The notes under the pieces were generated by a model, which was not told the DNA's origin, searched no databases, and saw only the letters and a program-made list of their open reading frames with translations. Source: Desulfoluna sp. (GTDB lineage: Bacteria; Desulfobacterota; Desulfobacteria; Desulfobacterales; Desulfolunaceae). From it: DNA of 64,000 nucleotides. The position numbers and the translations under genes are program-made. The stretch is taken from positions 1 to 64,000 of the forward strand of contig NZ_JAQYWB010000004.1 in the NCBI RefSeq assembly GCF_030145185.1, given 5' to 3'. Below, in pieces: positions 17,245-39,476 of this stretch (its first letter is position 1; every line of letters begins with the position of its first letter).

Positions 17245-17544
17245 CTACAGCCATATTTCTTCTATACATAGGGTTTTAAACAGAAATCGTCGTTTCCAGG
17301 AGATGAGGATGGGGCATCGATGCGCCTTGACCTCCGGTGTATACCAGACGGTGATGCCGTCGATTTCAGTTTCCTGGTAGCCTTTTTTGCTGAGAGGTGT
17401 GCCTCGACGAACCGCCGGGGTGAGCTTGGATGCTTGGCGGGCGGGGCCTCAGCCGCTGCAGCCCTTTTTGATGACCATTCGAATGGTGATGGCGTCACCC
17501 CGTGTTTGAAGGGTACGCCTGGCGTCTTGAGTGAACTGCAACAT
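17245..17544 (-). CDS. HesB/IscA-like selenoprotein with in-frame UGA (candidate)
   Basis: Reading through one in-frame TGA (17451-17449, codon 32) gives 99 residues: an IscA/HesB-like start, IRMVIKKGCSG-U-GPAR, then EIDGITVWYTPEV and a short tail ending at TAG. GCSG is the first cysteine motif of A-type iron-sulfur carriers. A HesB-like family with selenocysteine is known from Desulfobacterota and Geobacter (TIGR01911). GGGAG lies 7 bases before the ATG. Downstream of the TGA a stem CCGCC/GGCGG begins after 8 bases with an inner AGC/GCT stem, placing its loop about 17 bases from the UGA, in the range for a bacterial SECIS. The C-terminal CGC motif of IscA is missing, so it is not a standard carrier. 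Confidence 0.7.
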
Positions 17545-38742: not shown

Positions 38743-39126
38743 TTACAGGCAGCGGGCCAGGCTGGCTCCCACAAAAAAGAGGGCGAGTCCTGCTGTGACT
38801 TGAAGGGTGACGTTTCCCAAGGCCATCCACCACTGGGCTCCCCCCGCCAGTTGACCGGTTTCTGAGATAAAGGTGGAAAAGGTGGTGAAGGCACCCATGA
38901 AGCCGGTGAGGAGGATGGTGCGTGCTTCTGCGCTGATGGCCATGCGTTCGGCCCCCAGAGTCCAGACCAGGCCGAAAAGAAAACAGCCGATGGCGTTGAC
39001 GGTGGCGGTGCCCCAGGGAAAACCGCTTCCGGCCAGTCGCTGAACAAAGCCTGCCAGGCCGTATCGGGACAGGGTGCCGAGGGCGCCTGCCCCCGCGATG
39101 CAGAGCAGTTTCTGGTAAAGGAACAT
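38743..39126 (-). CDS. crcB: Fluoride channel CrcB (Fluc)
   Basis: This 127-residue protein with four membrane helices forms dual-topology dimers that expel fluoride. The family motifs are present: GALGTLSRYGLAG near residue 15, GTATVNAIGCFLFG (the Asn and Gly of the pore lining) and GFMGAFTTFSTF (phenylalanine box and sodium site). The gene is preceded on the minus strand by a fluoride riboswitch and terminator, and followed by a DUF190 gene. Expression should rise with intracellular fluoride. Confidence 0.95.
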   Translation of the reverse strand: MFLYQKLLCIAGAGALGTLSRYGLAGFVQRLAGSGFPWGTATVNAIGCFLFGLVWTLGAERMAISAEARTILLTGFMGAFTTFSTFISETGQLAGGAQWWMALGNVTLQVTAGLALFFVGASLARCL

Positions 39127-39202: not shown

Positions 39203-39239
39203 TCTTGTGGCTCCCCGCCACAGGACGCAATAGGGTCGC

Positions 39240-39318
39240 CGCTGGCAGGAGTCATCAGCTCAAAGGCGGTTTGTTCCGGCATTGGGCTTGCCGGGGTCAG
39301 GGGAACTCCATCCCCAAA
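39240..39318 (-). ncRNA. Fluoride riboswitch (crcB motif)
   Basis: On the minus strand the aptamer reads GGGGATGGAGTTCCCC, a variable hairpin GCCGG...CCGGC-like, AACCGCC, and GCTGATGACTCCTGCC. These are the conserved pieces of the fluoride riboswitch (GAUGGNGUUCNCC and CUGAUGACUCCU). It sits about 115 bp upstream of crcB, with an intrinsic terminator between, consistent with transcriptional control: fluoride binding prevents termination. Confidence 0.92.
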
Positions 39319-39476
39319 TCAATTTATGACAATGTACTGAAAGGTGACGGGTTCGTCAAGAAACCGAGCCCATGATCCCTTCCCGGCCCTGGGATCCTTT
39401 GACCTGGGGACTTCCACATAAACGATTGGGGCAAGAGGATGTTTAAGTGGTGGGGGCTGTGGGGACCGCCCTTTTT

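Follow-up and report, generated by a model that had tools for sequence, protein, structure and literature searches.

A Desulfoluna gene with an in-frame UGA very probably encodes a selenoprotein of the NF041239 family with a predicted IscA/HesB fold

A gene on the minus strand of a 64,000-nt stretch of Desulfoluna DNA (the window) looks broken by a stop codon and yet very probably gives rise to a working selenium protein. The gene (17245-17544, minus strand) would encode 99 amino acids followed by a TAG: its frame starts with an ATG at 17544 and runs through 30 more codons, a TGA at codon 32 (17449-17451), a further 67 codons and the TAG at 17247-17245. Re-reading the sequence bore out the original prediction as to this frame and its quoted peptides, and also as to a good start site, the Shine-Dalgarno-like GGGAG at 17555-17551 (minus strand), 6 nt ahead of the ATG. 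No sigma-70-like promoter was found for the gene. With UGA-32 read as selenocysteine (Sec), the product would very probably be a real, decoded selenoprotein of a known, uncharacterised family, with a predicted IscA/HesB fold and with Cys29 (TGC, 17458-17460, minus strand) as the likely partner of Sec32 in a CxxU motif.

The openness of the frame proves nothing by itself, because 49 ATG frames in the window are comparably open (25 or more codons, a TGA and another 60 or more codons before the next stop). As judged from the sequences, the case for a selenoprotein is carried by the homology that flanks the TGA on both sides and not by openness. Downstream of the UGA, the four pairs that include the window gene showed a dN of 0.33-0.46 against a dS of 0.99-1.59 (dN/dS 0.21-0.38), apparently the pattern of translated sequence under purifying selection. 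The constraint was looser in the remaining six pairs of its closest relatives, the B-type genes described below, whose dN/dS 3′ of the UGA was about 0.35-0.75. A plain protein scan of the genome contigs gave no match, and gene calling that is blind to Sec would be expected to truncate the paralogue to which the window gene belongs. The Desulfoluna genome (5.79 Mb, 152 contigs) encodes the machinery for Sec decoding, comprising selA (597 bits), selB (350 bits), the tRNA-Sec gene selC (75 bits) and selD (363 bits), all of them over cutoff, and its selD has a UGA of its own. The selenoprotein claim stood, since homologues align to either side of the TGA and the genome has the complete set of four sel genes. 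The window contains a second selenoprotein gene, which belongs to the already known FlpD/MvhD family (PF02662; 62901-63329, minus strand, in-frame TGA). It also holds a fluoride riboswitch (39239-39324, minus strand, 47.8 bits), and the ORF that follows it (38743-39126) resembles CrcB/Fluc, a name given by eye.

We then assigned the protein to a family. It matched NCBIfam NF041239, the 'CC/Se motif family (seleno)protein', with 50.0 bits against a cutoff of 40 (48.2 bits in the genome search), over residues 2-95, so that the match crosses the TGA. Among the motifs that mark the family (CC, UC or CxxU), the window protein carries the third, as C29-S-G-U32. Its four orthologues scored 44.0, 39.4, 33.7 and 29.4 bits; three out of four lie under the cutoff. 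The table of a 2026 review gives NF041239 (Moor_selen_rel) as a predicted selenoprotein of Moorella thermoacetica with the motif CxxU, and as a hypothetical protein without stated function (PMC13188914). A literature search combining Desulfoluna and selenoprotein found no paper that, going by its title, deals with the NF041239 family. We regard the window gene as a newly found member of a known family, with a function that is predicted.

We tabulated 43 family members, drawn from 13 of 395 genomes of the phylum, from the 25 of 389 genomes of the order that gave hits and from the Desulforhopalus gene L090. Duplicates were counted once (L009/L044, L010/L069/window gene, L021/L049), L067 (19 bits, no motif) was omitted from the table and L068 was left out of the tree. 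A TGA is present at the motif in 30 of the 43 members, and every one of these 30 has a further Cys or Sec, which occupies one of three places. The partner is an adjacent Cys in 13 (one of them F-type), an adjacent Sec in 3, a Cys at position -3 in 5 and, in 10 F-type members, a Cys near the C-terminus, one of these having the adjacent Cys as well. Of the 13 members without Sec, six have CC, two have just one Cys at the site and five have neither; the six CC rows (L051 and L055, for example) supply Cys homologues at the Sec column. The members whose motif lacks Cys and Sec alike (L049, L052, L053, L056 and L059) indicate that part of the family is without a chalcogen site. In L022, L063 and L068, the last of them a weak match, the motif has two in-frame TGA codons side by side and would thus read Sec-Sec. 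Because all 30 Sec-containing members have a second chalcogen residue, we read Sec32 and Cys29 as one functional pair, probably a redox or soft-metal pair. The role of U32, which the original prediction had left open, is partly answered in this way: it is likely to pair with Cys29, a residue that all five B-type orthologues share.

Two copies of the gene, A-type and B-type, are present in five of the six Desulfoluna genomes searched, the window genome included, and the sixth (G579) has none. The A-type motif is SGGUC, with GGGUC in the related gene L090 of Desulforhopalus. The B-type motifs are CSGUG (twice), CYGUG and CGGUR (twice), that is, a Cys at -3 in all five copies and a Cys at +1 in none. 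The TGA falls in the same column in all 11 A-type and B-type genes. In a tree built without the motif columns, the CxxU rows formed a single clade (100/99), which joined the A rows of Desulfoluna and Desulforhopalus (81/87) inside a group of UC/UU genes (100/98); the branch leading to the B clade is long (1.39). A profile of the B genes (E 0.01) found no CxxU outside Desulfoluna in 389 genomes of the class. It matched seven places outside this genus: two are UC genes (L058, and L106, which is the same as L057), one (L107) is a portion of the UU gene L063, and the remaining ones (L108, L109, L110 and L116) look like chance matches. Rows L101-L105 and L111-L115 of this search repeat, by position, A and B genes that were already known. 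Among the genomes searched, the B-type CxxU paralogue is, on this comparison, restricted to Desulfoluna. We infer that a duplication at or before the ancestor of the five Desulfoluna genomes gave rise to the window gene, and the partner Cys would have shifted from +1 (A-type, GGUC) to -3 (B-type, CxGU).

A candidate SECIS element follows the UGA. The hairpin CCCCGGC-GGUUC-GUCGAGG (17402-17420, minus strand) has its loop 35 nt after the UGA and lies within the codons for T-P-A-V-R-R-G. In the bSECIS model, as given in a figure legend of the 2026 review, a loop of 3-9 nt with an early G tops a stem of 4-16 bp at 16-37 nt from the UGA, with an MFE of -7.5 or lower (PMC13188914). The hairpin is common to the relatives, in which it lies in the codons for P-A-V-R-(R/M)-G and its 5-nt loop starts with (A/G)GU. 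The distance between UGA and loop is 20-23 nt in members with a short linker and 35 nt in A-type, B-type and L015, the latter near the upper end of the range of the model. Most A copies and L015 have a small additional hairpin, formed by the extra 12-15 nt between the UGA and the SECIS, and we speculate that it might shorten the gap between them.

Covariation was analysed on 18 of the 19 segments, one of two identical hairpin segments having been dropped. Results showed that 92.1% of the cells are paired in the conserved hairpin, compared with 38-52% when the hairpin was slid along these 18 distinct segments, and that 10 hairpin cells are changed on both sides. The paired percentage, the number of double-changed cells and the covariation score that were observed were not attained in any of 500 shuffles. 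The other two of the five measures were not distinct from shuffles, namely pairs changed on both sides (37/500) and pair types (233/500). One stem pair switches from G-C (10) to U-A (8), by way of Arg AGG codons in two members and of Met in six, and another switches from C-G to U-A in L061, where the peptide reads PVVYRG. Such covarying switches suggest that the conserved P-A-V-R-(R/M)-G peptide is probably in part conserved for the RNA.

In a scan with our own version of the bSECIS model, with one stem mismatch allowed, a hairpin of this type was found in 26 of 29 family members, compared with 99 of 600 TGAs drawn at random from the window, which were not matched for composition; in L066 the best hits are another hairpin. 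The members that fail are B_L093, L063 and L064. Three known selenoproteins of the genome were also scored, the second FlpD (L099) being left out: selD passes, and HesB_Se and the first FlpD fail. Among the 29 members scanned, the window gene has the weakest hairpin, with one C-A mismatch and -7.5 kcal/mol, exactly the limit of the model; its p against synonymous recodings is 0.80, and the bare 19 nt give -6.5 kcal/mol. In the window copy, the minimum-energy fold of the 54 nt starting at the UGA does not contain the conserved hairpin and pairs this region differently. Across the family, the best hairpin had p ≤ 0.05 against synonymous recodings in only 11 of 29 members, and in some it is not the conserved one. 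A strong SECIS directly after the UGA was discarded: the 57 nt from the TGA, a stretch that contains the conserved hairpin, gave a z of -0.02 against dinucleotide shuffles, and 42 nt gave a z of +0.25. The claim of a stem-loop at SECIS distance holds up weakly: the conserved hairpin lies 35 nt away, within the 16-37 nt range, but the 57 nt fold no better than shuffled sequence. A role for the hairpin in the window copy is deduced from conservation and covariation in the relatives; aided by it, SelB would decode UGA-32 as selenocysteine.

The weak SECIS of the window copy bears on another explanation, according to which the gene is a duplicate in decay: the working copy would be the A-type one, and the UGA of the window gene would act mostly as a stop, giving a 31-residue peptide. 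The long branch to the B clade, the shortened C-terminus and the dN/dS of up to about 0.75 in the other B pairs would fit such a decay as well. We consider it improbable, however, given that the B genes of five genomes keep the UGA, Cys29, P-x-VRRG and the downstream DGI-VWY, that dN/dS after the UGA stays at 0.2-0.4 in the window pairs, and that L092 and L094 have strong hairpins (p of 0.047 and 0.007 against synonymous recodings). A decoded selenoprotein is the reading that we prefer.

We next examined the predicted structure. An AlphaFold model built from ten sequences (pLDDT 80.4, pTM 0.69) has the order beta-alpha-beta-beta-beta-beta-alpha-beta-beta, and its pLDDT is low in the motif loop (block mean 53). 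In the Foldseek search, the first ten matches were without exception chains of IscA, SufA, HI1723, AQ_1857, YneR or DsrR, all kin of IscA. The best E value was 1.3e-3 (identity 8-16%), none being under 0.001 for the window model, and from the 11th onward the matches are unrelated (E of at least 0.9). VIA-align gave a Z of 9.2 to IscA over 88 residues (3.4 Å, 8% identity); because proteins that lack a clear match also tend to have a best Z of 7-8, the run of IscA-type matches outweighs this score. The model of the A-type protein of D. limicola, which was built from the same ten sequences and is thus not independent, found the same ten chains (best E 9.7e-4), with its second helix unassigned. 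A profile search of the sequences of solved structures returned nothing credible. With hhalign, two proteins of the genome over the IscA_HesB_Se cutoff aligned with the window protein at an E of 1.4e-4 and a program probability of 52-53%, and Sec32 fell in the HesB Sec/Cys column in one alignment and one column away from it in the other. The predicted shape of the window protein is that of an A-type iron-sulfur carrier of the IscA/HesB kind, and Sec32 would lie in the loop where HesB-family proteins have their Sec or first Cys.

The description of the gene as HesB/IscA-like is right for the predicted fold and, going by profile matches, wrong for family membership, since the profile matched is NF041239. 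The window protein had no Pfam match up to an E of 10, and TIGR01911, NF038090 and other HesB families are absent among the two matches listed up to the same E value. Proteins of TIGR01911/NF038090 have a C-terminal Cys motif. This motif is present in L095 and L096, and the original prediction correctly noted that the usual C-terminal CGC is missing from the window protein, which ends in ...KTLCIEEIWL with a C93 that is not kept in orthologues. That the gene is a true HesB-like selenoprotein of TIGR01911/NF038090 which has lost the CGC would agree with the shared predicted fold, the U followed by G-P and the hhalign match. We nevertheless find this very unlikely: these profiles and Pfam are missing among the matches listed, the window gene groups with NF041239 members (in a tree without HesB rows), and the NF038090 selenoprotein of the genome is a separate gene elsewhere (L096, 121 bits, over the family cutoff). 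L096 lies at C146:29265-29471 on the minus strand, with an in-frame TGA, and its Cys homologue is L095.

Regarding the genomic neighbourhood, the window gene is a solitary one, with a chemotaxis receptor gene running divergently from it. The corrinoid genes pointed out in the original prediction (B12-binding and URO-D) are indeed adjacent, but their relevance did not hold up: neither has a counterpart near the other four B genes (18-kb stretches, E 1e-8). Those stretches contain an orthologue of the chemotaxis receptor in three of four cases and of a membrane protein in all four. With no consistent partner gene across loci, we discarded the neighbourhood as a guide to function. Of five Desulfoluna A-type loci, four have a YitT gene next to them, two of these genes being recognised by Pfam and two by similarity to those. 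Three of the ten F-type loci have a Bax1-I (BI-1) gene on the same strand directly downstream of the family gene (L027 5996-6766, L029 411-1139 and L033 9593-10378), with gaps of 24, 113 and 79 nt, respectively. Flanks were taken for four loci without Sec, and near three of them (L034, L035 and L082) lies a gene for a CstA carbon-starvation transporter, the motifs there being CC or, in L035, no Cys.

As to mechanism, the partner of Sec32 would be Cys29 and not a C-terminal Cys, the two forming one chalcogen pair that is most likely a selenylsulfide/selenol-thiol redox centre. Almost as likely, the pair would serve as soft-metal or Fe-S ligands shared across a dimer. In that alternative the protein handles metal or Fe-S rather than redox chemistry, each subunit contributing Sec32 and Cys29 to make four ligands for Fe, Fe-S or another soft metal. 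The IscA/SufA predicted fold speaks for it, and so do the F-type relatives, whose partner Cys lies near the C-terminus, where IscA has the CxC that provides ligand positions. On the other hand, A and B types are without a conserved C-terminal Cys, and a Pfam scan of 19 neighbouring genes showed no Fe-S assembly gene among them. We give metal handling somewhat less than an even chance and keep the redox centre as the preferred reading. Taken together, we hold with good confidence that the window gene encodes a 99-residue selenoprotein; the gene would have arisen by duplication and have its UGA-32 read via the hairpin, and the protein would adopt an IscA-like fold and work through a Sec32-Cys29 pair. 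The predicted fold and the second chalcogen residue lead to a testable idea, a Sec-Cys centre on the scaffold of an A-type carrier. More tentatively, NF041239 may form a branch of the IscA/HesB fold that has gone unrecognised, with a fixed Sec and a partner that moves, being a C-terminal Cys in F-type members, an adjacent Cys or Sec in UC/UU members or a Cys three residues before in CxxU members; the extra hairpin of the Desulfoluna A-type genes and L015 may restore the spacing.

Compared with known systems, the window gene shares with NF041239 a profile match over cutoff, the size, the Sec column and the CxxU motif as tabulated. It differs in being a B-type gene found, among the genomes searched, only in Desulfoluna, in ending soon after the last strand, in the 35-nt distance to its candidate SECIS and in that only one of its four orthologues is over the family cutoff. 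With NF038090/TIGR01911 the protein has in common the predicted fold, a Sec in the corresponding loop and the U followed by G and P, but it has neither the profile match nor the C-terminal Cys motif of these families. The predicted order of secondary-structure elements is shared with IscA, SufA, the A-type carriers and DsrR. IscA has three conserved Cys, whereas the window protein, about 8% identical to it, would have two chalcogen residues in one loop.
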